22,676 nt of DNA from a virus. The position numbers and the translations under genes were made by a program. Below are positions 4,952-21,254 of the stretch, piece after piece (position 1 is the first letter of the stretch; every line of letters begins with the position of its first letter). The notes under the pieces were generated by a model that was not told the DNA's origin, made no database searches, and worked only from the letters and a program-made list of their open reading frames with translations. The stretch is from positions 1 to 22,676 of the IMG/VR virus record IMGVR_UViG_3300007734_000484; one strand, 5' to 3'.

Positions 4952-6927
4952 TACTCACCCCCTGAAATTTGTCCAGCTCCAATACCAGTAGCACTTGCTC
5001 TACGCAAACGCTCTGCCGCTAATCTATCCATCATAGGCTTTAGGTTCTGTAACTCTTGCTGACCACCTTGACCACGCATCATAAGCAGTCTAGCCATCTC
5101 ATCTCTAGTAGCTTCTGGCATCCGTACCTTATTGTATATACCAGCTACCCCTCGTGCGCTCCCAGCTATTGCAGGTAGAGCCTGACCTGAGCCTATACTT
5201 GCAGCTACTTGAGCAGCGTTTGATACTGGTTGCGCGTCTAAGTCACCAGCGGCATATAGTCTTGATGCTGTCTGGCTACCTCTACCTACAGACTCTAGCT
5301 CTTTTAACCTAGCCTCTCTAGCTACATCTGCTGCGAATTTCTTGTAGTCGTTGCCAAATATCTCTTTGAGTTTTCCGCTAGTAGCAGGTTCTTTCCACAT
5401 TTTAAGCATTGATGTCTGACCAGACTCAGTGCCTACCTTGTCTCTAAGAGATTGCAATGCTCCTACCTTAAACGCTTCTACTTGGTCTTGAGTCATTCCC
5501 TTCATCATATCAGATACGCCAATAGCGTCTGTTTTCATCGCGCCACGCCCTGATTCTACTGCATCCTGTAGTTGAGCTGGGCCTGAGAAGGCATTTCTAG
5601 CCTGTTTGTAGATAGAACCTGCCTCGTTCTTAGGAGATAGGTCATCCATCTTATTAGTAAGAGAGATTCTTAGCTTGTTATAGGCAGCGCCTACTTCCTT
5701 GTTGCCAGCACGTTTAGAAGTCTCACCTAAGTCATACAAACTCTGTTTAATCTTATCCAGTGCAGCAAAAGGTATATCATCCCCAGCCTTCAGAGCAGAT
5801 ATGTTAATTGGCACTTCTTGTCTGAGCCTAGAAAGTAACTCTGCTCCACCATGTGCGCTATCAGCAGCCTTCAGTAAACCGCTTAATTCTGAGTCTACAC
5901 GGACGCTCATACCTTCTAGCTGTTTGTATAGTGGAGCGGCTTCTTTAGTCTTTCTATCAATTAAATTCTGTATGGTGTCTTGATATCCAGCACCTTTAGT
6001 GCCTAGAGATTCGTTAGCGGCAGAAGATAACCTACCAGAACGACCAGATTGACGCTCTCTAATAAGCCCCTCTACAAGTTGCTTTGTTCTGCCCGGCAAT
6101 GTAGCTAGAGTATCGAGTAACTGTCTTGAACTAGCGCCGCCAGCATCGGCTATCGTAGCCTCTGGGCCTAATTTCTGCATTCTACGAGCAGCCATGTCTG
6201 TAGCATTCGTTAAAGCACCCGGAGTCTGTGCCAATGCGCCTCTAGCATCTCTGCTTAGAGCCTCTGCCAGCTTCTCACGAGCTACCTGACCTGCACTACC
6301 CTGTGACACTCTTTGCGCTATGTTGCTGCCTACAGCACCTATTGCTGATCCTACACCGCTTAATGCTCCACCAGTTACAGCACTTAAAGCCGCGCCAGAT
6401 AGAGCATCACCGCCTAAGCCTTCTACATCTTGAGCAGTAGACTCGCCGACTCCTTGAGCTGCACCATATCCAGCGCCTACTTTTGCTGCTTGCAGAGCTT
6501 TAGCCAGTGTTGTAGCTGTACGAGCCTGACCACCGGGTATAAACGCCAATGGTAAAGATGAAATGCCTCTAGCTACTTGTGAGCCGATTGGATAGTCCTC
6601 TTCATGCTGCTTAACAGCGCCACGAACATAGTCACGACCAGACTCATAGCCCGAAGGGTATCCCTTTCCTTGTAGAGTAGATAACACACCAGAACCCACT
6701 CCAGCAGCTTCATCTAAGAATCCTAGTGTTGGGCCTTGCAATGCGCTTAAAACGCCACCAGTGAAGCCTCCAGTGCCTCTACCGCGTGTCATAGAGCTAG
6801 ATTCTAATGGCCCTTTAGAAACTTCCTGATCTGCACGAATGTAGTCAGCTAGTTTTTGTGCTGAGTCAGTATCTCCGGCTGCATGAGCAGCAAGTAGCGC
6901 AGCTTTTGCTCTCTCGATGTCTGCCAT
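4951..6927 (-). CDS. Large internal virion/DNA ejection protein
   Basis: A 658-residue protein, probably injected with the DNA. The N-terminus ERAKAALLAAHAAGDTDSAQ followed by KLADYIRADQE is a small helical motif frequent at the start of phage internal virion proteins. Residues about 50-100 and 150-210 are Gly/Ala-rich hydrophobic stretches (FTGGVLSALQGPTLGFLDEA, SGAALSAVTGGALSGVGSAI) suited to membrane insertion. The central 230-560 is helical and charged (LVEGLIRERQSGRSGRL, NLIDRKTKEAAPLYKQLEGM). No lytic transglycosylase or peptidase motif is seen. Neighbours are the helical 366-residue protein and the first fibre gene (TAATG). Confidence 0.72.
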   Translation of the reverse strand: MADIERAKAALLAAHAAGDTDSAQKLADYIRADQEVSKGPLESSSMTRGRGTGGFTGGVLSALQGPTLGFLDEAAGVGSGVLSTLQGKGYPSGYESGRDYVRGAVKQHEEDYPIGSQVARGISSLPLAFIPGGQARTATTLAKALQAAKVGAGYGAAQGVGESTAQDVEGLGGDALSGAALSAVTGGALSGVGSAIGAVGSNIAQRVSQGSAGQVAREKLAEALSRDARGALAQTPGALTNATDMAARRMQKLGPEATIADAGGASSRQLLDTLATLPGRTKQLVEGLIRERQSGRSGRLSSAANESLGTKGAGYQDTIQNLIDRKTKEAAPLYKQLEGMSVRVDSELSGLLKAADSAHGGAELLSRLRQEVPINISALKAGDDIPFAALDKIKQSLYDLGETSKRAGNKEVGAAYNKLRISLTNKMDDLSPKNEAGSIYKQARNAFSGPAQLQDAVESGRGAMKTDAIGVSDMMKGMTQDQVEAFKVGALQSLRDKVGTESGQTSMLKMWKEPATSGKLKEIFGNDYKKFAADVAREARLKELESVGRGSQTASRLYAAGDLDAQPVSNAAQVAASIGSGQALPAIAGSARGVAGIYNKVRMPEATRDEMARLLMMRGQGGQQELQNLKPMMDRLAAERLRRASATGIGAGQISGGE

Positions 6928-8027
6928 TATTTCCCCTTTGGTGCGTACATATCCATAATAGATTTTAGTCCCGCATCATTACTAGATTTTGCGCTAAAGT
7001 CAGGCTCAGTAAGGTCAAGACCTGCTGCCTTGCCCTTCTTGTAAAGATATTGCGTTATCCCCTTTAAGGAGTTTGCAAACTCTTCTTCTGGCATACCCCT
7101 ATCCAAAGCTCCGACAGCGGCAGATAGTTTCTTACCTTCAGCATCAGACAGAGCGCCCATTCCTTTAAGAGCAGATACCATTGGCAAGAATGTTTGAGCA
7201 TTAAATGTCTCTAATTTCGCTGCAAATCCTTTTGCCTCTGTACCGGGAACCATGCCCAATATAGAGCTTGCTCCAGTAGCAGCCTTTCTGCCCGGATGGT
7301 TATATAGGTCTACAGCGCCATTCAATACTTCTTGAGTAGATATAGACTTCTGTAAGTTATCTTGAGCTTTTGCAGCATCAACAGCCATATCAGCCTTTGT
7401 TGGCAACCTACCTTGCTTCAAACTCTCTAACTGTAGATTGTATGCTCTATCTGCATTACCTTGAGTTCGCTTTATTTCAGCCTCTTTATCTAATCTATTT
7501 TGCGCTCTCTCATCTAACCTTGTTTTCTCTTGAGCTTCAGCACCTCTTCTTTCGCTTGATGCACGAGCCATATTGCGTATCAATTCGTTATCACTTCCCA
7601 TGCCACTCAATTCGTGTGCCAATAGTTGCGCTGGCGATCTTGGAGTTGAAGTCATCTGAGTCTGTGGAGTGTAATTATTAACATCACCACCAGCGGAATT
7701 CGTGTAAGCAGTTTCAGGGCCAAATCCCTGACCGTAAGCAGCAACCTCACCTCTGCGCCGTTCCTGTTCAGCAACTAACTTCTGTTCAGCAGCAGCCTTC
7801 TCATTAGAATATCTTTCATCCATCTGATTCTGCTGGTGTCCAGCTAGTAATGCAGCAGCCAGTTTTGCAACGCCCTGTACTGGATGAAGAGGAGCTTCTA
7901 TACCTTTGTAACTAGCACGTTCAATAGGTGCGTTAGCCTGTTCCTGTAGCATTCTGGCGTACTGATTCCTCCTGTACATATCAGCAACATCTTGTGAATT
8001 GAAATTAATGAATTGATTATCTGCCAT
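6927..8027 (-). CDS. Probable internal virion/ejection protein, helical
   Basis: A 366-residue protein rich in charged helices. Residues about 75-95 (YSNEKAAAEQKLVAEQERRR) and 160-200 (AEAQEKTRLDERAQNRLDKE) predict coiled coils. The C-terminal third holds FAAKLETFNAQTFLPMVSAL followed by KGMGALSDAEGKKLSAAVGA, a segment I know as recurrent in phage proteins encoded after tail genes and thought to be DNA-ejection proteins. It has no enzyme motif or signal peptide. It ends in TAATG with the 658-residue gene, so the two are probably made in step. Confidence 0.72.
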   Translation of the reverse strand: MADNQFINFNSQDVADMYRRNQYARMLQEQANAPIERASYKGIEAPLHPVQGVAKLAAALLAGHQQNQMDERYSNEKAAAEQKLVAEQERRRGEVAAYGQGFGPETAYTNSAGGDVNNYTPQTQMTSTPRSPAQLLAHELSGMGSDNELIRNMARASSERRGAEAQEKTRLDERAQNRLDKEAEIKRTQGNADRAYNLQLESLKQGRLPTKADMAVDAAKAQDNLQKSISTQEVLNGAVDLYNHPGRKAATGASSILGMVPGTEAKGFAAKLETFNAQTFLPMVSALKGMGALSDAEGKKLSAAVGALDRGMPEEEFANSLKGITQYLYKKGKAAGLDLTEPDFSAKSSNDAGLKSIMDMYAPKGK

Positions 8028-8038
8028 GACTATCTCCC

Positions 8039-8467
8039 TTATGCGAAAAGTTTGCTAAAGCCGCTTGCAGCCGACTTGAGAGCGCCACCAACATTGCTTG
8101 CCCCTCTGCTAATTGCACCGCCAGCCCTTGCCGCAGAACCCATCATTCCGCGCTGTGCTGACATAGGTGCGCTTAGTTCATAACCCATCTTTGAGCCGCC
8201 ACTGGGTGCATTGTAGCTTTTCATAATTTGACCAGCTTGTTGTTGCTGTGGAGTCATAGGGGTGGCTTGTGCTTGACTCATTCCATCTTGAGCTTGCTGA
8301 TTAAATGAATTAGCAAAAGATTGTGGGCCGTTACTATCTTGATCTAGGCCATACTTCCTAAGCCTCTCAGCTAGTGACAAACGGTTTTGCTGTTGCACTC
8401 CAACTACTTGCGGATTAGCCATCTCGCCCGGTTGCTGCATCTGAAAATTTACTATTCTGTTTGGCAT
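8039..8467 (-). CDS. Small Gln-rich protein with Gly/Ala-rich C-terminus, probable virion component
   Basis: A 142-residue protein with no family I recognise. The first half is Gln/Asn-rich and disordered (VVGVQQQNRLSLAERLRKYG, TPQQQQAGQIMKSY). The end (SAARAGGAISRGASNVGG, then ALKSAASGFSKLFA) is an amphipathic Gly/Ala/Ser helix with spaced basic residues, like phage ejection or membrane-active peptides. It starts two bases after the reductase-like gene, between ejection-like genes. Confidence 0.65.
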   Translation of the reverse strand: MPNRIVNFQMQQPGEMANPQVVGVQQQNRLSLAERLRKYGLDQDSNGPQSFANSFNQQAQDGMSQAQATPMTPQQQQAGQIMKSYNAPSGGSKMGYELSAPMSAQRGMMGSAARAGGAISRGASNVGGALKSAASGFSKLFA

Positions 8468-8469
8468 AA

Positions 8470-9153
8470 CTACCTCATTAACTCAACGATTGGAATGATT
8501 GTACCCTTTAATTTGCTCATGTTTAACGCATACTTATCATATAGTTCTGGATGGTTAACTTTAGTCCATTCAACCCTATCTACTGAGTCCTTCATAAATC
8601 CAGTGCAGTCGTAACAGTCAAGGCTTGTATGGTTTAAGCTAAAGTGTTCTGGTAGTTGACCGCGCTGCGTTGCTACAAAGTCTAGTACCTGTTTGCCAGT
8701 CCACTTCTCTATAGGCTGTATGTACTCAATACCGTCTACAACTGCTCCATGCCTAGACTCACCCTTAAATGACTCGTCATTACGCTGACCCTTGATGAGC
8801 TGAGTAATACCCCTCTTTTTCATTGCTTCAAGCAGCGGTAGAGTAATATTCTCCATACAGCAGTTTAAGTGACTCTGTATCAGAACATCCTTCTTACCCG
8901 ATACAATCATTCCATCTAATGTGTTGGCAATCGGCACTATGTCGCTAGGTATGCCGTTAGCGTCAATCTGAGCCTGTTGATCTACATTAATCTCAATGAA
9001 TTCGACTGCTTCTGCCCTAATCTCTTCTACTATAGCTAATGTCTCAGGGTAAGCCTTGCCAGTATTGGCAAAGAAAACTATAGGATTCTTAGCTTTGTAT
9101 AGATACCAGCAAGCTAGAGAATCTTTACCACCTGAGAAAGCTAGTCCTAGCAT
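8470..9153 (-). CDS. PAPS-reductase-like PP-loop enzyme with CC-X80-CXXC iron-sulphur motif
   Basis: A 227-residue protein of the PP-loop ATP pyrophosphatase/PAPS reductase superfamily. SGGKDS at residues 8-13 is the PP-loop, FANTGKAYPET (28-38) the following conserved strand, and KGQRNDES (121-128) the sulphate/arginine motif region. Cys98-Cys99 and Cys180-X2-Cys183 are separated by exactly 80 residues, the spacing of the [4Fe-4S] motif of APS reductases. The C-terminus (GTIIPIVELMR) has no Glu-Cys-Gly, so the redox cysteine of true reductases is missing. Reduction of sulphate is therefore doubtful. A different sulphur transfer or adenylation role, for example nucleic-acid modification, is possible (inference). 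It is tightly embedded in the ejection-gene operon. Confidence 0.88.
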   Translation of the reverse strand: MLGLAFSGGKDSLACWYLYKAKNPIVFFANTGKAYPETLAIVEEIRAEAVEFIEINVDQQAQIDANGIPSDIVPIANTLDGMIVSGKKDVLIQSHLNCCMENITLPLLEAMKKRGITQLIKGQRNDESFKGESRHGAVVDGIEYIQPIEKWTGKQVLDFVATQRGQLPEHFSLNHTSLDCYDCTGFMKDSVDRVEWTKVNHPELYDKYALNMSKLKGTIIPIVELMR

Positions 9154-10310
9154 TACATCATACCCATTCCAGCGCCACCAAGAGAACCGCCAAGACTCAT
9201 TAAGCCGCTTGTAAGGTTATTTTTAGCTTGCTGTCTTATTCCGTACTGATCCATCTGACCTTGAAACGTATCTTGCACCCCTTGATAGATCGGAGCAGCA
9301 GCAACATTAGATGGCTGAAAGCCTTGAAACTGTGGCATCTGTATCTGTGACCCACTCATCAAGCCCGTGATCTGATTTAATGGCTGATTACGCAGTGCAA
9401 GTTGCTGCTCAAGACTTTGTTGCTGTGCTGCATTCCCAAACTGAGCTAAATTAAGTTGCTGGTTAAAGTTTTGTGCAACAGCAGCATTCTGTGCAGTTTG
9501 TGCAGCTAATTGATTCTGATAGTCTTGCTGTAGCGCAGTGTTACCCATGCCAGCATTCTGCAAAGCAGCGTTAAACTGTGATTGTTGCGCTTCATTGCCA
9601 AACTGACCACGAGCCTGAGCTTGTCCAAAACCTTGCTGATTCATCATTGCATCAAGATTGATACCCTGAGCAGCAGCTTGTAGCTCTAAGTCATTTCTGT
9701 TTTGGCCCATAGTACGCATTTCATTCTCGTAAGCCTCTCCACCAGAGACTAGACCTTGATTAGCAAGACGCTGCCTTGTTGCATTCTCATTCTGTGTTAA
9801 CTGAGGCTGTAACCTAGACATAATTGCTTGCTGACCAGTCATACCTGCGTTAACAGGCATTGCTGCTATTCCTGACGTATCTATACCTTGCTGAAAAGTG
9901 GGGCCAGCCACAGACCTCTGTGCGCTTCCAGCGTTGTATGCAGCTTGATTAACTGGTGTAACTGACTCTGCAATGCTTGTATCAATACCCGGCAGATTAG
10001 GGTTAAATGGAGTACCTAGTATTGTTTTAGCTTGTGCAACACCCTGCTGACCTAGCTCTGCAAGTGATCTCTCTACACCTTGTTGTGCATTTAACGTGGC
10101 CTGAGCGTCAGGAGTGAGTGTCTGCGTTATGGTTGGAGTGTACTGAGCATCACCAGTTCCGTAGGTAACTACCTGACTACCTAATGGCCCGTATGTATTT
10201 GGGTTAGATAGTTTAGACGTAGCTACAGCAGACTCTAAGTTAGCTACGCCTTGCTGTTTAGCTGCTGCGCCATAGTCTGGTACTGGCGGTGGAGTTGCTT
10301 TCTTACCCAT
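9153..10310 (-). CDS. Probable internal virion/DNA ejection protein, Gln-rich
   Basis: A 385-residue protein. The N-terminus (MGKKATPPPVPDYGAAAKQQ) has the Pro-rich start often seen in phage virion or ejection proteins. Residues about 215-310 are low-complexity Q, N, A and F (repeated QFNAALQNAG, QNFNQQLNLAQFGNAAQQQ). The C-terminus is Gly/Leu/Met-rich (GLMSLGGSLGGAGMGMM), resembling a membrane-interacting tail. No enzyme motif is visible. Placed after gp10-like and acetyltransferase genes and ahead of two more helical proteins, it probably belongs to the set injected with DNA. It ends in TAATG with the next gene. Confidence 0.68.
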   Translation of the reverse strand: MGKKATPPPVPDYGAAAKQQGVANLESAVATSKLSNPNTYGPLGSQVVTYGTGDAQYTPTITQTLTPDAQATLNAQQGVERSLAELGQQGVAQAKTILGTPFNPNLPGIDTSIAESVTPVNQAAYNAGSAQRSVAGPTFQQGIDTSGIAAMPVNAGMTGQQAIMSRLQPQLTQNENATRQRLANQGLVSGGEAYENEMRTMGQNRNDLELQAAAQGINLDAMMNQQGFGQAQARGQFGNEAQQSQFNAALQNAGMGNTALQQDYQNQLAAQTAQNAAVAQNFNQQLNLAQFGNAAQQQSLEQQLALRNQPLNQITGLMSGSQIQMPQFQGFQPSNVAAAPIYQGVQDTFQGQMDQYGIRQQAKNNLTSGLMSLGGSLGGAGMGMM

Positions 10311-10707
10311 ACTTGCCTCCTAAAAATTTACATTTATCTTTCAACAGCGTAAAAAATATCATATCACCGTTACTTCTCTTTATTCTGGCTTCTTCTGTAA
10401 AGCCCATATTCTTTACTAGCTTAATGCTTTTATCGTTCTCTTCAGTGATCGGTACTACTATCTTCTCTACGTTACATACTATAAACGGATAGTTAAATAT
10501 CGCAGCTATGAAAGTCTTATTCATTCTCCCTTCTACTGCAATATGACAGGTAATCGTGGTGTCCATAAAGCTCTCGTAGATCACCCCTGCAACTATCTGT
10601 CCTTCTCGTTCCAGCCCTATGGCTGATGAATTGCAATGGTACGATCCTGTGGTCTGTTCTGCTACCCATGCACCAACAGAATCGCCTTGTACTATATGCC
10701 AGCCCAT
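10303..10707 (-). CDS. GNAT-type acetyltransferase-like protein in the tail cluster
   Basis: A 134-residue protein starting inside the end of the gp10-like gene. It has a GNAT-like pattern: a central strand pair (AIGLEREGQIVAGVIYESF), ITCHIAVEGRMNKTF, a VCNVEKIVVPITEENDKSIK segment and LVKNMGFTEEARIKR, which matches the usual C-terminal 'N..s..l..k.GF' element of N-acetyltransferases. Substrate unknown. Similar small acetyltransferases lie in tail or ejection clusters of several podoviruses. It could modify a virion or host protein (inference). It overlaps the next gene by eight bases. Confidence 0.72.
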   Translation of the reverse strand: MGWHIVQGDSVGAWVAEQTTGSYHCNSSAIGLEREGQIVAGVIYESFMDTTITCHIAVEGRMNKTFIAAIFNYPFIVCNVEKIVVPITEENDKSIKLVKNMGFTEEARIKRSNGDMIFFTLLKDKCKFLGGKYG

Positions 10708-14434: not shown

Positions 14435-15355
14435 TTAAGCCAGCAGAACGCCGCAGAATTGCGGGCCGCTAGAGGTTAAGTTACCAGCGAAACCAATTAA
14501 TTTAACGATTGCGTCTTGATTAACCGCTTGACGTTCGCCACCAATTGGTACGAAGTTACGGTTAGCATTAGGACGGAACATAATGTATTTCGTGTTCAAC
14601 ATCCACATATGACTTGCGGTTGCTGCTGAACCGATACCACCGTCCAGAACAACATCAGAAGCCATACCAGCGCCGTAGTATTTGAGTGAGGCAAAACCAG
14701 CTCCAGCAGTGCTGCTTCCACCATCAGAAATACGCTGAATGCTTTGCAGCGATTGCAGGTACATACGATAGAAGATGTTATCAGCAACGATCAGATCAGG
14801 CTTGTCCGTACCCCGAATCAACTGAACAGCCAGTGAGTCCATGTAACCTTGAATGTTGGATGCTGATGTAGCCGATCCACCATCGGTAGTTCCACTAAAC
14901 TTAACTGAACGCCAGAAGCTATAGGTAGCACGGTTAATGCCGCCGTATGTTCCAGTAGTAGGTGCATCAGGCACAGCAGCGCCTAGACCAGTCAGGTTCT
15001 TGCCAGAGTTGCCAGTTCCGTCTAGGTAAATGTCACCACCAATACGGTTAGCCAACTGAGCTTCAGCAACATTCATACGACCGTCAAGCAGGTCAATGAT
15101 TGCTTCTTTACCGCTGTTCTGAATCATCTCAAGACCGCTGATTGAAACAGCAGCAGCGTATTGGGTGATTGAGAATTGAGCAGCAGAGATCGGGCTGTTT
15201 TGCGAAACATTCAATACCTCATAGCCCGAATAGCTATTGGTGTTGTTAGTTGCCGAATCTGAATACATGATTTCCTGAAGGATAACATTCCCACCAGAAA
15301 AGGTTTTTACATTGCCACGATCTTTCAAGCGGCGCAGTAGTGCGTTGTTGTTTGT
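14435..15355 (-). CDS. Major capsid protein, exon 2 (306 codons)
   Basis: The coat protein that builds the icosahedral head. After splicing to exon 1 the protein has 333 residues. The exon begins TNNNALLRRLKDRGNVKTF and continues with GGNVILQEIMYSDSATNN and SYSGYEVLNVSQ, then QYAAAVSISGLEMIQNSGKE (the helix that looks like the HK97-fold spine region), and ends in APQFCGVLLA-like residues (SSGPQFCGVLLA). The HK97 fold is presumed from family knowledge. The frame stays open back to an ATG at 15394, but those 13 extra codons (MQVRDKEPEHNTR) derive from intron P9 sequence and have no ribosome site. Scaffold lies upstream and small virion-like genes downstream. Confidence 0.9.
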   Translation of the reverse strand, partial: TNNNALLRRLKDRGNVKTFSGGNVILQEIMYSDSATNNTNSYSGYEVLNVSQNSPISAAQFSITQYAAAVSISGLEMIQNSGKEAIIDLLDGRMNVAEAQLANRIGGDIYLDGTGNSGKNLTGLGAAVPDAPTTGTYGGINRATYSFWRSVKFSGTTDGGSATSASNIQGYMDSLAVQLIRGTDKPDLIVADNIFYRMYLQSLQSIQRISDGGSSTAGAGFASLKYYGAGMASDVVLDGGIGSAATASHMWMLNTKYIMFRPNANRNFVPIGGERQAVNQDAIVKLIGFAGNLTSSGPQFCGVLLA

Positions 15356-15417
15356 CCTTGTGTTATGTTCAGGCTCTTTATCCCGAACCTGCATATTCCA
15401 TTTATATGCAGAGCAGA

Positions 15418-15882
15418 CTATCTCATCGCAAGTTTTATCGCTTTCTTGGTGGCACTAATCTTAGCACCGTGGCCTTTCGGCTTACCAATCTGCGCCAATC
15501 TACGCTTTAGGTTGCTTTCTGCGCTTGGTCTGTAGCCATTAGCTACCCTAGACTTTGATGCCATTGCAGGAGCGTTTGGAGGCGGTCTAAACGAATACTC
15601 ATTATCGTTTAGTAACAAATTACTGCCTCTGTAGTGCTTCATCCAAGACAACTCGCGCTCACGCTTCTCAATCACTGATACTTCTGCTGGCATTGTCTCA
15701 AGTACCTTCATCTGAAACTCACCAGCGTGATCGTTCCACGCTTCTTGCAACCTCTTAGAGCTATGCTTACCGGCTTTTAGTAGACTCCTATGCTCTCGCA
15801 TCCTCTTACCTATCTTGCCCGCTGTGCAGCCTACATACGCTGCTCCAGTGCTTGCATCCTCTAAACCGTACACTGTCACCAT
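15418..15882 (-). CDS. Intron-encoded GIY-YIG homing endonuclease (I-TevI-like)
   Basis: A 154-residue endonuclease expected to cut intron-less copies of the capsid gene so that repair copies the intron in. TVY (3-5) and YVG (16-18) stand for the GIY and YIG strands, with Thr replacing the first Gly. R27, H31, H40 and E75 fall at the same numbers as the I-TevI catalytic-domain residues, and the GKHSSKRLQEAW segment closely resembles I-TevI. The C-terminal part (about 115-145: YRPSAESNLKRRLAQIGKPK, then GAKIS) looks like a NUMOD3 DNA-binding module. AGAGGAG lies eight bases before the ATG. The stop TAG is inside the 3' strand of P7, so coding and ribozyme functions share bases. It is shorter than the 245-residue I-TevI. 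Confidence 0.9.
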   Translation of the reverse strand: MVTVYGLEDASTGAAYVGCTAGKIGKRMREHRSLLKAGKHSSKRLQEAWNDHAGEFQMKVLETMPAEVSVIEKRERELSWMKHYRGSNLLLNDNEYSFRPPPNAPAMASKSRVANGYRPSAESNLKRRLAQIGKPKGHGAKISATKKAIKLAMR

Positions 15883-15890
15883 TTGGAATA

Positions 15891-15897
15891 CTCCTCT
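15891..15897 (-). promoter_or_regulatory. Ribosome binding site of the intron endonuclease
   Basis: AGAGGAG, eight bases upstream of the ATG at 15882. It lies within intron RNA after the P3' strand (15918-15914), so it may be exposed or masked depending on folding of the P8 region. Confidence 0.7.
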
Positions 15898-16055
15898 TTG
15901 GTTGATACTTACGCTCCGCGCTCGTGGGACTCTGCTTCCGCTTTGTCCTAGTCGTTACACCTTACGCACCCATTGGGTATCCTGTGCGTCTTGGCTCGGT
16001 GTTGGCATCTCAGCTTTTCACCGAATTCACGGAGTTTTATAACGTCTATAAGTTA

Positions 16056-16136
16056 AACGTTGTCAGCTAGTTCACCCGTACGACTTTGAATGTTAGTCGC
16101 AATGATGTCTGAAACTGAACTATTGGCGAAGGCCAT
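16056..16136 (-). CDS. Major capsid protein, exon 1 (27 codons)
   Basis: Reads MAFANSSVSDIIATNIQSRT followed by GELADNV, preceded by a strong GAGGAG site. In frame, the next codon is TAA, which is the first three bases of the intron. On its own this would be a pointless 27-residue peptide. It has the character of a capsid N-terminus, and the protein at 15355-14435 lacks exactly such a start. Joining the last GTT (Val27) to ACA (Thr) at 15355 gives an uninterrupted frame through the junction (GELADNV-TNNNALLRR). The exon ends in T, as group I 5' exons do, and its last six bases pair with the intron guide. Confidence 0.85.
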
Positions 16137-16142
16137 AATTTA

Positions 16143-17470: not shown

Positions 17471-19566
17471 GCTTGACCCAGAACGATAGCTACTTCAGTA
17501 TTAGCGGCTTCTTCTGCCTCACGCACCTTATCTACCTGTGCCTTTGCGCCTATCTCAGCGACCATGATGCGAGTAGATGAGTCCAGTTGTGCTTTGTAGC
17601 GATTAAACTGATCTAGGTATTGTAGCTCTTGCATCTTCATCTGCTGGCGCATCTGCTCTAGCTGTGCGTCTGCCTGTAGCTTCATCTGCTCGATCTGCAT
17701 ATCTGCCTGTACTCGTGCCTGTTGAGCCTGTACATCGATCTGTGCCTTCATCTGAGCTGCTTGAGCATCTGCCTGCATTCTCATCTGGTCAGACTGTTGC
17801 TGCGCTTGCATCTTCATCTGCTCAGGATCAGGCTGCGGCTGTTGTGGCTGCTGTGATGCTGCCTTCATCTGTTCTAAGGCTGTATCTAACGTACCCTCGA
17901 TAGGTTCTGCTTGCTTAAACGCTCCGATACCGAACTTCATCACCTCTACCAGCATTGGGATAAGCTCAGGTGACTCGCGCCCTACAGGTAAGGCTTGACC
18001 TAAGAAGCCGCCAAACGCTGTCAAGAACTCTACCCGGTTACGCTTGTTCTGATCTTCATCTAACTGCACCAGACTGTCAGCCTCTACATCTATCCTAAAG
18101 TTGGATAGCGGGGAATCTTGCAGTAACTCTATGGCTTGGGGTATCAATTGCTGATCTGCCTGAGACATTTGCTGTGCAGCGGCGTACTGTAATAGAGTTT
18201 GTGGCTGAAACTTAGTACACATGATCTGCGCTTTGAGCTTAATCAGGCTAGACGCAAACAATGCAACCTCTTCCTGTAACGCCCTTAATCTAAGCCCTGC
18301 ATACTGGCCCTTGATCTGTTGTGCCGTTGCAGTCTCGCTTGCACTGGTCTGACCACGAATGATGTCAGATATGCCTGTAATCTCGTAGATTTGACTCTTT
18401 ATGTCCTCTCTTGCCCGGTAGCAGTTGATGAGCGTAGCAGCTATTACATCAAGCGGTAGGATGTCTATACTGCCCTTCAGCCCACCCTTTTCACTGAATG
18501 CCATCCACTTATCCACAGGTATCAGAGTATTATTGTCTCCCTCTGTGAGCAGACGTTGTAGCGTTGGCTGGCTTGCGTCATATACTCCTCGTACCCTCAG
18601 AGCCTTGACCAGACCGTCAATTCTGTCGCTTAAAATGTCCAGTTCAGTAGCCTGATCTTGATACAGCACAAAGTCAGGCACAGGGATGAGAGAATCAGAG
18701 GTTAACGTAGCGTAGAGAGGTTTGCCACAAGGGAAGAAGCCTTCTACCTCTATCGGGTCATCACGCTCGTCTATGATGTAGTTGCTGTTCTTGCTAAACC
18801 AGTAGACCTTGCCTGTCTCTTTATCCCACAGTTCACATATCTTAGCTCTGGTATGTTCTTTGCTAGACTGACCATAGGAAGTTAGTGTCTGTGGGCCGCT
18901 GTCTAAAGGTATCTTCTTTGCAGACTTATCGCCAAAACGCTCTATAAGCGCCTCTCGAGTCATGTAAGCCCAGCGCCATACTATCGTGACCTCTTCCCAT
19001 GTCCTCGCTACTGAGTGACCAAAGTCCTTCCAGTGAACGTAATCGGTAGGAGCGCATTCATACTCAATCTCTTCATATGTCTGATTAGTCTCTGGGCCTG
19101 TCTCGTCCTCTGCGTTCTCTTCGTCTGTGTCCTCAGTGACCTGTAGCCCATCTTCTGGCATATCACGCTGTATTAGATGCGGCTCATAGCGTACCCATGC
19201 AACACCTCTGCCTCCAAGAAAACGATCTTGCACCGCGTTCTTCATGGTTGCTCTGAAGTCTGGGTAATGCTCAATCTCGTAGTCAATAGCTCTCTGAATG
19301 ATCTGTGAGGCTACACGACCTACTTGGTCATTGTCTCCAAACCTGCGCGATACGTCAGCCATAGGCAGCTTAGAGTAGACTGCTGGCACTAAAGTCTGTA
19401 CGTTTGACCAGAGAATATTAAACTTTGCAGTCTCGTTAGAGTTCTGGCTACGGTTGTCATCTCTGTAGCGTTTAACGATCTTTGCAGCACGAGCCTCCCA
19501 CTTCTTGTACTCGTTGTCGTATGCGCCGATTACGTTCAGATACTTCTCGATTGGAGTTTCGGTCAT
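17467..19566 (-). CDS. Portal protein (P22-like)
   Basis: A 699-residue protein, in the size range of P22-type portals, forming the dodecameric DNA gate at one capsid vertex. The N-terminus has a charged helical stretch (KKWEARAAKIVKRYRDD), then NILWSNVQTLVPAVYSKLP and a conserved RAIDYEIEHYPDFR region, all typical of P22-like portals. Residues about 580-660 are a long Gln/Met/Ala-rich helix with six 11-residue units, followed by a charged tail. It starts in an ATGA overlap with the ART-domain gene and ends in another ATGA overlap with the 112-residue gene. The position after terminase and before scaffold and capsid is the standard order. Confidence 0.92.
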   Translation of the reverse strand: MTETPIEKYLNVIGAYDNEYKKWEARAAKIVKRYRDDNRSQNSNETAKFNILWSNVQTLVPAVYSKLPMADVSRRFGDNDQVGRVASQIIQRAIDYEIEHYPDFRATMKNAVQDRFLGGRGVAWVRYEPHLIQRDMPEDGLQVTEDTDEENAEDETGPETNQTYEEIEYECAPTDYVHWKDFGHSVARTWEEVTIVWRWAYMTREALIERFGDKSAKKIPLDSGPQTLTSYGQSSKEHTRAKICELWDKETGKVYWFSKNSNYIIDERDDPIEVEGFFPCGKPLYATLTSDSLIPVPDFVLYQDQATELDILSDRIDGLVKALRVRGVYDASQPTLQRLLTEGDNNTLIPVDKWMAFSEKGGLKGSIDILPLDVIAATLINCYRAREDIKSQIYEITGISDIIRGQTSASETATAQQIKGQYAGLRLRALQEEVALFASSLIKLKAQIMCTKFQPQTLLQYAAAQQMSQADQQLIPQAIELLQDSPLSNFRIDVEADSLVQLDEDQNKRNRVEFLTAFGGFLGQALPVGRESPELIPMLVEVMKFGIGAFKQAEPIEGTLDTALEQMKAASQQPQQPQPDPEQMKMQAQQQSDQMRMQADAQAAQMKAQIDVQAQQARVQADMQIEQMKLQADAQLEQMRQQMKMQELQYLDQFNRYKAQLDSSTRIMVAEIGAKAQVDKVREAEEAANTEVAIVLGQA
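17623..17820 (-). repeat. Six 33-bp units encoding an 11-residue coiled-coil repeat in the portal
   Basis: Portal residues 583-648 divide into six 11-residue units, each beginning Q-M/A: QMKMQAQQQSD, QMRMQADAQAA, QMKAQIDVQAQ, QARVQADMQIE, QMKLQADAQLE and QMRQQMKMQEL. An 11-residue (hendecad) period predicts a nearly straight right-handed coiled coil. The DNA shows matching degenerate 33-bp periodicity rich in CATCTG and TGCCTG words on the plus strand. Confidence 0.8.
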
Positions 19567-21254
19567 TTTCTGTCCTGTTGTCTAAGTGCTTCAGCTATTG
19601 CTTGAGGGTCTAACATCCCGCCAACACCTACACCAGCGAGAATGTCTGCTTCATGTCTACGCATTGGGTCAAAGGCTGCAAATCGTGAACGCAGTTGGTT
19701 TGGAGCGACTGACATTATTTCTTTATGTAAATAACCGCTTGGTGAATAATCCATAGTTATTCCAGTTTTACCCAAACTATTCAGAGCGTCATTAACCTCG
19801 ATTGGAGTCATGTTACCCATTTCACCTAAAGCATCAGATACATTACTTCTTTTATCTTGCCCAAAGTTTGTATAAGGAACTTCTAAATTGTTTTGATCTG
19901 CAACGCGCATTGGCATGGAGACCTGTTTATTCCAGTTATCACCTAGTTTTTTATCAGTTGTTGTATAAAATCCACTTCCAAGCCACCCTTCATCAGTAGC
20001 GGAGCCGATAGATTTAGGGTCAAACTCTGAAAATCTAGCATTTGTAAAATGATAAGCATCTGTCGGATACATAGCATTAGCTCTGTCTATATAGGTATTA
20101 TTTGCTGGCAGTCCTAGTCCACCCTGCTCAACTGGTAGCGCAGCATTTCTCTGTGCTGTGTCGTGCAGTATCTCGAACTCTGTCTTAGGTCGTGGAATCA
20201 TTGCACCGCCTACACCATTGCGCTCAAGAATGTTCATGTGCTTAGGGTCAAATACTACAAAATTAGATGTACCTTTGCCAGCAGCATCTCTACTAGCAGC
20301 ATCTAGGTAGCGTATGCCTGTGATGCCAAGTTGCTGCAAGGCCCTTGATGCCTGTTGCACATTATGCCCGGATGCTGCGCCGGATGAAAACTTCCTGTAA
20401 ATATGCTCACCCGTATCTGTTGGGTTAAAGTTGTCCCCCCATTGCTGCACAGCCACTTGTACATCAGGATGCTGCTCACTCAATGGTTTATCCCAATCAA
20501 GCATCTTTGCAACGTGTTCGTCTGGTAGGTCTACTTTGTATAGGTTCTGACCGTATCCGCTTTGTAGTTCATTTGATAATTCTTGCGCTTTAGCTGTATC
20601 ACCTCTTGCAATAGCCGCATCTCGTTGGTATTGCAATTTAAACTTATCATCACTTACTCTTGCCGCTAAATTATTGGCGTATCCCTTAGCTAAAACTGGA
20701 GAATCAGATAAATATCCAGCCCCAACGCCATAGGCTTGTGCGCCCGTACCTGTTCCCGCCATCATTGGGTCAAACTCACCTAATGGATTATTAGCTGTTG
20801 GTGGGAAGGTATGAGGTGAGCCGTGCCAAGTGGTTATGGGTGATCTAAGGTCAACTACAGCTCTGCCGATACCAGTACCAGTCTCGATCTGCCTAGCACC
20901 CTCTCTCAAAGCGGCTTTAGTTAAATTCTTAGCAATTGGAAACATTGCGCCGCCAAGCCCCGCAACATCTAACAGCCTCGGGTCTACCTTTACTGTGTTT
21001 AGTGTCGCACCCCTAATAGGTGGCTTACCATAGCTAATGTCATTTACAAGGCTTTGCGTTCCCTTCAGCCCGGACAGGTCAGCAAAGCTCATACCGCCCA
21101 GCAACGGTATGCTCTCAGGTAGCTTGTCACGATCTGCAAACTCTGATACTGGAGCAAGAAAGTTAGCTACACCGCCTAGAAACCTGTTCTGTGGCGTGTT
21201 TCTGATCTCGCCCCGATACGCAAGAGCTTTGGCTAATTCTTTAGCGGAGGGCAT
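19563..21254 (-). CDS. Polyvalent protein with two ADP-ribosyltransferase-like domains
   Basis: A 563-residue protein. Residues 1-130 contain short Gly/Pro-rich hydrophobic stretches. Residues about 142-346 look like an ART-fold domain: WHGSPH (H144) starts it, a GVGAGYLSD segment supplies the aromatic Y181 followed by a helix (AKGYA), and it ends in a SNFVVFDPKHMNILERNG strand. Residues about 400-530 look like a second copy: YHFTNARF (H402), LGSGFYTTTD (Y430), and HKEIMSV (E512) before an RSRFAAFDP end. Each is followed by a GVGGxM motif (347-351 and 543-547). Such domains occur in phage polyvalent proteins that may be carried in virions and enter the host. The neighbours are a head protein and portal (TAATG upstream, ATGA downstream). 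Enzymatic activity is inferred. The second domain keeps a better candidate catalytic Glu than the first. Confidence 0.65.
   Translation of the reverse strand: MPSAKELAKALAYRGEIRNTPQNRFLGGVANFLAPVSEFADRDKLPESIPLLGGMSFADLSGLKGTQSLVNDISYGKPPIRGATLNTVKVDPRLLDVAGLGGAMFPIAKNLTKAALREGARQIETGTGIGRAVVDLRSPITTWHGSPHTFPPTANNPLGEFDPMMAGTGTGAQAYGVGAGYLSDSPVLAKGYANNLAARVSDDKFKLQYQRDAAIARGDTAKAQELSNELQSGYGQNLYKVDLPDEHVAKMLDWDKPLSEQHPDVQVAVQQWGDNFNPTDTGEHIYRKFSSGAASGHNVQQASRALQQLGITGIRYLDAASRDAAGKGTSNFVVFDPKHMNILERNGVGGAMIPRPKTEFEILHDTAQRNAALPVEQGGLGLPANNTYIDRANAMYPTDAYHFTNARFSEFDPKSIGSATDEGWLGSGFYTTTDKKLGDNWNKQVSMPMRVADQNNLEVPYTNFGQDKRSNVSDALGEMGNMTPIEVNDALNSLGKTGITMDYSPSGYLHKEIMSVAPNQLRSRFAAFDPMRRHEADILAGVGVGGMLDPQAIAEALRQQDRK

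Follow-up and report, generated by a model that had tools for sequence, protein, structure and literature searches.

A CysH-like PP-loop Protein Family Lacking the Catalytic Cysteine of APS Reductases, Encoded among Phage Ejection Genes

Genomic Context of the CysH-like Gene

The window analyzed is the whole 22,676-nt (22.7 kb) viral fragment of IMG/VR record IMGVR_UViG_3300007734_000484. Its minus strand encodes terminase, portal, major head, tail or head-completion and ejection-type genes, and among them an open reading frame at 8470..9153 (minus strand) for a CysH-like PP-loop protein of 227 amino acids (Pfam PF01507, phrog_424). The plus strand across 8470-9153 has many stops. Directly upstream lies a virion or ejection-type structural gene (9153..10310, minus strand, phrog_6121), and its TAA stop codon shares 1 nt with the ATG that starts the CysH-like gene (TAATG). 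On the other side, a small gene with no family match (8039..8467, minus strand) begins 2 nt past the CysH-like gene, and beyond it an ejection-type protein of the kind 'released from the phage upon host infection' is encoded (6927..8027, minus strand, phrog_2534). The ejection cassette also holds a GNAT acyltransferase gene (10303..10707, minus strand, phrog_4470), a position kept in Lessievirus and also in phages that have no CysH-like gene. The location among ejection and virion genes given in the preliminary description was thus confirmed by the families on both sides, and it is kept in relatives: the order GNAT, structural/ejection gene, CysH-like gene and virion genes is common to the window, Burkholderia Lessievirus and a Nitrosovibrio prophage.

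The junction with the upstream gene is also a recurrent feature. Among 181 loci having an upstream neighbor, this gene is on the same strand in 175, and the two genes overlap at 157/181, by 1 nt at 134 loci and by 4 nt at 23. Such short overlaps between genes on the same strand point to translational coupling. No homology was detectable by hhalign among the upstream gene families or among the small downstream genes.

All phages (26/26) in which the gene three places upstream has a close copy (at least 83% identity) followed by at least 1.7 kb of sequence carry the CysH-like gene. In more distant phages (64%) the CysH-like gene is missing, with the ejection genes, and mostly GNAT too, present; at locus L303, the ejection genes adjoin directly with no CysH-like gene between them. 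This presence and absence at the same place indicates an accessory gene with one fixed site. GNAT and the CysH-like gene were also considered as an obligate pair, which was rejected because GNAT remains where the CysH-like gene is absent. In the L303 phage, the protein homologous to the upstream structural one (L303:3428-5110) has a Peptidase_S74 (endosialidase chaperone) domain at its C-terminus.

Partner genes were sought by annotated name. No Dnd/Ssp/BREX-type partner is annotated near the gene or in the complete phages BcepIL02 and ctyzp037, and neither of these two phages has a gene named as a desulfurase, DndD/E-like protein, SspB/C or reader. No sulfur donor or modification partner was seen in the neighborhoods.

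Domain Assignment and Sequence Motifs

PAPS_reduct (PF01507) is the sole Pfam domain of the protein, with 52.7 bits against a cut-off of 22.5, and the PHROGs search places it in phrog_424 with 80.1 bits (E 3.4e-22). The NCBIfam models for APS/PAPS reductases matched well below cut-off, TIGR02055 for APS reductase with 33.2 bits against 235.3, and the best NCBIfam matches, the archaeal PRK13795 and PRK08557, were far under cut-off and mainly across the PP-loop. The SGGxDS loop, the domain score and the predicted Rossmann-like alpha-hydrolase fold together place the protein in the PP-loop ATP pyrophosphatase/PAPS_reduct superfamily.

Relatives were gathered from phage records, IMG/VR and bacterial genomes, giving 186 full-length sequences and an alignment of 187 proteins. 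The earlier reading of the gene as a single oddity was not upheld, since it belongs to a large phage family that is already sequenced and commonly annotated. The PP-loop SGGKDS (residues 7-12; 9118..9135, minus strand) is intact, as had been stated; a degenerate DNA pattern for it gave 1 match in the window with 0 expected, and in the 187 proteins S, G, G, D and S are essentially invariant, with K in 179/187. It is followed on the same strand by TGKAYPET (residues 31-38; 9040..9063, minus strand), which resembles the CysH TGxxxxET motif and shares TG and ET with the aligned APS reductases, and by GIPSDIVP (residues 67-74; 8932..8955, minus strand), representing a GxPxDxxP motif of the phage clade that is not present in the aligned APS reductases or CysD (G67 and P69 in 186/187, D71 in 184/187). 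GQRNDES (residues 122-128; 8770..8790, minus strand) is the counterpart of the CysH/CysD G-x-R element, with G122 invariant and R or K at position 124.

The window protein has five cysteines, at residues 15, 98, 99, 180 and 183. The last four form a CC pair (residues 98-99; 8857..8862, minus strand), with N-I next to it, and a CXXC element, CYDC (residues 180-183; 8605..8616, minus strand), both putative ligands of a [4Fe-4S] cluster. The spacing is exactly CC-X80-CXXC, and the claim that it is that of iron-sulfur APS reductases proved correct: in APS-reductase controls taken from host genomes it is X79 to X81, and in a profile alignment the CC and CXXC sites pair one to one with those of the M. 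tuberculosis enzyme. Since all four cysteines are unchanged in 187/187 aligned proteins, the arrangement is not due to chance.

Conservation and Loss of Reductase Elements

In the controls, R-K comes right after CC in all cases, ECG[LI]H stands 23-25 residues beyond CXXC and RxGRW is found toward the C-terminus. In the phage clade, N-I replaces R-K (N in 176/187) and RxGRW is absent. Past residue 183, the window protein contains no cysteine, no ECG and no RxGRW, and an ECG tail is present in 0/186 full-length relatives, the two ECG triplets that were found being both mid-protein. The absence of ECG first noted in the 227-residue window protein therefore holds throughout, and the lost catalytic cysteine is a family trait. 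Some cysteine beyond CXXC does occur in 61/186 relatives, at varying positions and in varying contexts.

Two other accounts of the missing residue were rejected. Truncation or frameshift is ruled out, as the relatives are equal in length and also lack ECG. The C-terminal cysteine of a sister group (in NCDA, DCDE or SDC) was considered as a displaced catalytic residue, but tail cysteines are found in only about one quarter of 52 clusters and at shifting positions.

Strong purifying selection acts on the protein, as 29 close copies have a median dN/dS of 0.076. Across relatives the SGGxDS loop hardly varies, and in a few distant members the lysine is replaced by arginine, alanine or another residue. 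Within the clade, a viral subgroup (L175-L178) has SGGADS (L176, L177) or SGGIDS (L175) and retains all four cysteines; to judge from the motif, replacement of the PP-loop lysine in this subgroup possibly reflects a change of ATP chemistry. In Aeromonas phage phiA008, a full-length clade member spans L003:7941-8663, and the annotated hypothetical gene begins too late, at 8130, thereby omitting the PP-loop half.

Phylogeny and Predicted Structure

Fifty-six proteins were placed in a maximum-likelihood tree, which is rooted at the midpoint and has some long branches; in it, the phage and prophage CysH-like proteins form a single clade with support 100/97. APS reductases (100/99), CysD, DndC (99/94) and SspD (100/99) group apart from it. 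The phage clade sits on the APS reductase/CysD side (96/82) and not with DndC/SspD.

The AlphaFold model, built from 49 sequences, has a mean pLDDT of 96 and a PP-loop alpha-hydrolase fold, although a model of this kind can show neither cluster nor substrate. The structure-based comparison proposed in the preliminary description gave CysH/APS reductases as the best matches. The top Foldseek match was the P. aeruginosa APS reductase 2goy (E 4e-8), and VIA-align gave Z 12-13.6 for CysH/APS reductases, Z of about 12 for GMP synthetase ATP pyrophosphatases, which makes a near tie (within 1 at several ranks), and Z 10-11 for the NcsA, LarE and TtuA thiolases. The shared fold is not enough to assign function.

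Comparison with Known Systems

The closest named counterparts are the proteins called 'PAPS reductase' in Lessievirus (Bcep22-like) phages, namely BcepIL02 gp67, JC1 gp65 and those of DC1, Bcepmigl and CSP3, which belong to the same clade as the window protein. They share 37-38% identity with it over 94%, have common motifs, lack ECG and have an equal cassette order. The window phage itself is only distant kin of Lessievirus, and its 227-aa protein has a short N-terminus.

Assimilatory APS reductases (P. aeruginosa 2goy, M. tuberculosis 7lhr) resemble the phage proteins in fold, in CC-X~80-CXXC, and in the TG...ET and G-x-R elements. In contrast to them, the phage clade has no ECG, no R-K after CC and no RxGRW, keeps an intact SGGKDS and forms a clade of its own. 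CysD (sulfate adenylyltransferase subunit 2) has an SGGKDS-type loop and shares its side of the tree with the phage clade, but it falls outside that clade and has no CC...CXXC except in an unusual clostridial case; moreover, no CysN GTPase partner was seen near the CysH-like gene. This case, the CysD-like protein L230 (genome G012), contains CCKALKTDGL and CAPCTGK, that is, CC plus CXXC, unlike other CysD proteins of the set.

The DNA phosphorothioation proteins DndC and SspD share SGGKDS, the PAPS_reduct superfamily and cluster-type cysteines with the phage proteins, whereas their cysteine arrangement is another, they fall in another part of the tree, and partner genes of this type were not seen near the CysH-like gene. 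NcsA, TtuA and LarE likewise combine a PP-loop fold with a [4Fe-4S] cluster, with a lower structural match and another cysteine layout. In these sulfur transferases, the cluster has three ligands and an open iron. CasCysH of type IV-B CRISPR systems, placed beside the phage clade by its description, has also retained the PP-loop and lost the catalytic cysteine, in a different context, and has been interpreted as an adenylylating enzyme (PMC8175902).

Proposed Function and Alternatives

On balance we favor, with moderate confidence, a non-reductase PP-loop enzyme that is specific to phages, belongs to the CysH/PAPS_reduct superfamily and would adenylate its substrate late in the infected cell. 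A sulfonucleotide reductase is argued against by the loss of ECG, of R-K after CC and of RxGRW, together with an SGGKDS loop that is unmodified; the earlier statement that APS or PAPS is not reduced by the known route is in line with this. The proposal that the protein binds ATP and uses a cluster stood as far as its PP-loop and four cysteines go, and the cluster, very probably a [4Fe-4S] cluster held by CC...CXXC, is predicted from these residues. The reading is built on the domain, the motifs and their conservation, the missing reductase elements, the clade, the predicted fold, synteny and gene overlap, from which we infer the cluster, adenylylation, the transfer step and late timing. No biochemical or activity data for any clade member were found in the literature searched.

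In the mechanism that we propose, SGGKDS would bind ATP, and its conversion to AMP and PPi would activate (adenylylate) a substrate oxygen; sulfur or some other nucleophile from the host could then take its place. The cluster may organize the active site or carry sulfur. The most likely enzyme type is a sulfur or nucleophile transferase; nevertheless, with four cysteines conserved the cluster is more likely to be fully coordinated, like that of APS reductases, than to have the open site of NcsA/TtuA-type thiolases, which weakens the sulfur-transfer step, and the altered PP-loop lysine of a few members counts against the reading as well. Through translational coupling the protein would be made with the ejection proteins, probably in the late phase to judge from the gene's position, and would act within the infected cell, probably unpackaged. 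In the JC1 virion proteome, the neighbors gp64, gp67 and gp68 are listed and the homologue gp65 is not (PMC9144972), which suggests that the homologue is not packaged in JC1.

The published view of the Burkholderia phage relatives is that they are PAPS reductase moron genes with a proposed role in sulfate reduction (PMC9144972, PMC10269572). A genuine auxiliary APS/PAPS reductase, boosting sulfite and cysteine in infection by attack of another cysteine or an external thiol, would account for the APS-reductase fold, the cluster motif and the retained TG...ET and G-x-R elements, and the 61 relatives with a cysteine beyond CXXC could be cited in its favor. We consider it unlikely. The window protein offers no cysteine past residue 183 and those in other tails are sporadic and shifting, R-K and RxGRW are missing, and an SGGKDS loop stands in place of the modified SxGAED type. 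In addition, 7/10 prophage-carrying host genomes have their own APS-reductase-type CysH (164-297 bits, four above the curated cut-off), so that a simple boost to metabolism becomes a less attractive explanation. Action on nucleic acids, by a late thiolase or another ATP-dependent enzyme that modifies phage DNA or host tRNA in the manner of DndC/SspD or NcsA/TtuA, is a doubtful alternative, if one with real parallels: DndC, NcsA, TtuA and LarE combine an intact PP-loop with a cluster, thiolases are among the structural matches and weak SspD matches were obtained for 32/49 members. However, SspD and DndC lie elsewhere in the tree, their cysteines are not arranged as CC...CXXC, and the annotations of BcepIL02 and ctyzp037 list none of the expected accessory genes.

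The near-constant place right after a structural/ejection gene with a 1- or 4-nt overlap, and the GNAT gene within the cassette, would fit modification of a virion or ejection protein (e.g., adenylylation, or at the N-terminus) or a chaperone-like partnership with the product of the coupled gene. This is quite improbable, as the upstream proteins belong to several families with no detectable mutual homology and the ejection cassette also occurs in phages that lack the CysH-like gene, which is thus not required for ejection as such. The nucleic acid or virion modification role suggested previously stays at the level of a suggestion, given that no Dnd/Ssp/BREX-type partner is annotated nearby or in BcepIL02 and ctyzp037, that the tree places the clade toward CysH/CysD, and that gp65 is missing from the JC1 virion proteome. 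A counter-defense or superinfection factor, with ATP-dependent chemistry on a host molecule, is very unlikely: accessory presence at one site, strong purifying selection and fold relatives within defense systems are compatible with it, but nothing specific favors it, an entry protein would not usually be encoded in a late operon, and JC1 apparently does not package its homologue. The nucleic acid and virion readings can be special cases, with a named substrate, of the non-reductase adenylating enzyme, so that these likelihoods are not exclusive. The broader proposal of a widespread phage class, co-made with ejection proteins, that would use ATP and a [4Fe-4S] cluster to modify phage DNA, host RNA or an ejection protein is held only tentatively and seems rather unlikely.

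The non-reductase reading bears on how viral cysH genes are annotated. cysH is among the commonest viral auxiliary metabolic genes and is taken as sulfate assimilation (PMC9301287, PMC7785012). The authors of a Thermus phage study considered that homologues of PAPS reductase in phages may have roles outside sulfur metabolism (PMC11437467). In IMG/VR, a scan with true APS reductases as queries gave 7 viral loci and the scan for the CysH-like clade no fewer than 332, a ratio that is indicative only, since the two scans were unequal in sensitivity. A 'viral cysH' of this clade type should not be taken as a sign of sulfate assimilation. If the non-reductase reading is true, some of the literature on viral sulfur metabolism needs a second look, and a conserved phage enzyme would become a concrete and assayable target.

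Other Features of the Window

The major head (capsid) gene is split into 14435-15394 and 16056-16137 (minus strand) by an insert of about 700 nt in the 15356-16055 region. Exon 1 (MAFANSSVSDIIATNIQSRTGELADNV) is followed by the insert and then by exon 2, TNNNALLRRL, and the intron-less capsid homologue L010:1729-2730 reads straight across the split point. The last nucleotide of the exon is T and that of the insert is G, a GIY-YIG open reading frame (15418-15882, minus strand) lies inside, and Rfam Intron_gpI matches 15908-16065 with 29.9 bits (E 1.3e-5), under the gathering score. By these sequence features, the insert is a predicted group I intron carrying a homing endonuclease gene. Between terminase and portal, a 563-aa open reading frame (19563-21254, minus strand) gave a sub-threshold match to ART-PolyVal (ADP-ribosyltransferase), with 23.3 bits against a cut-off of 31.2.
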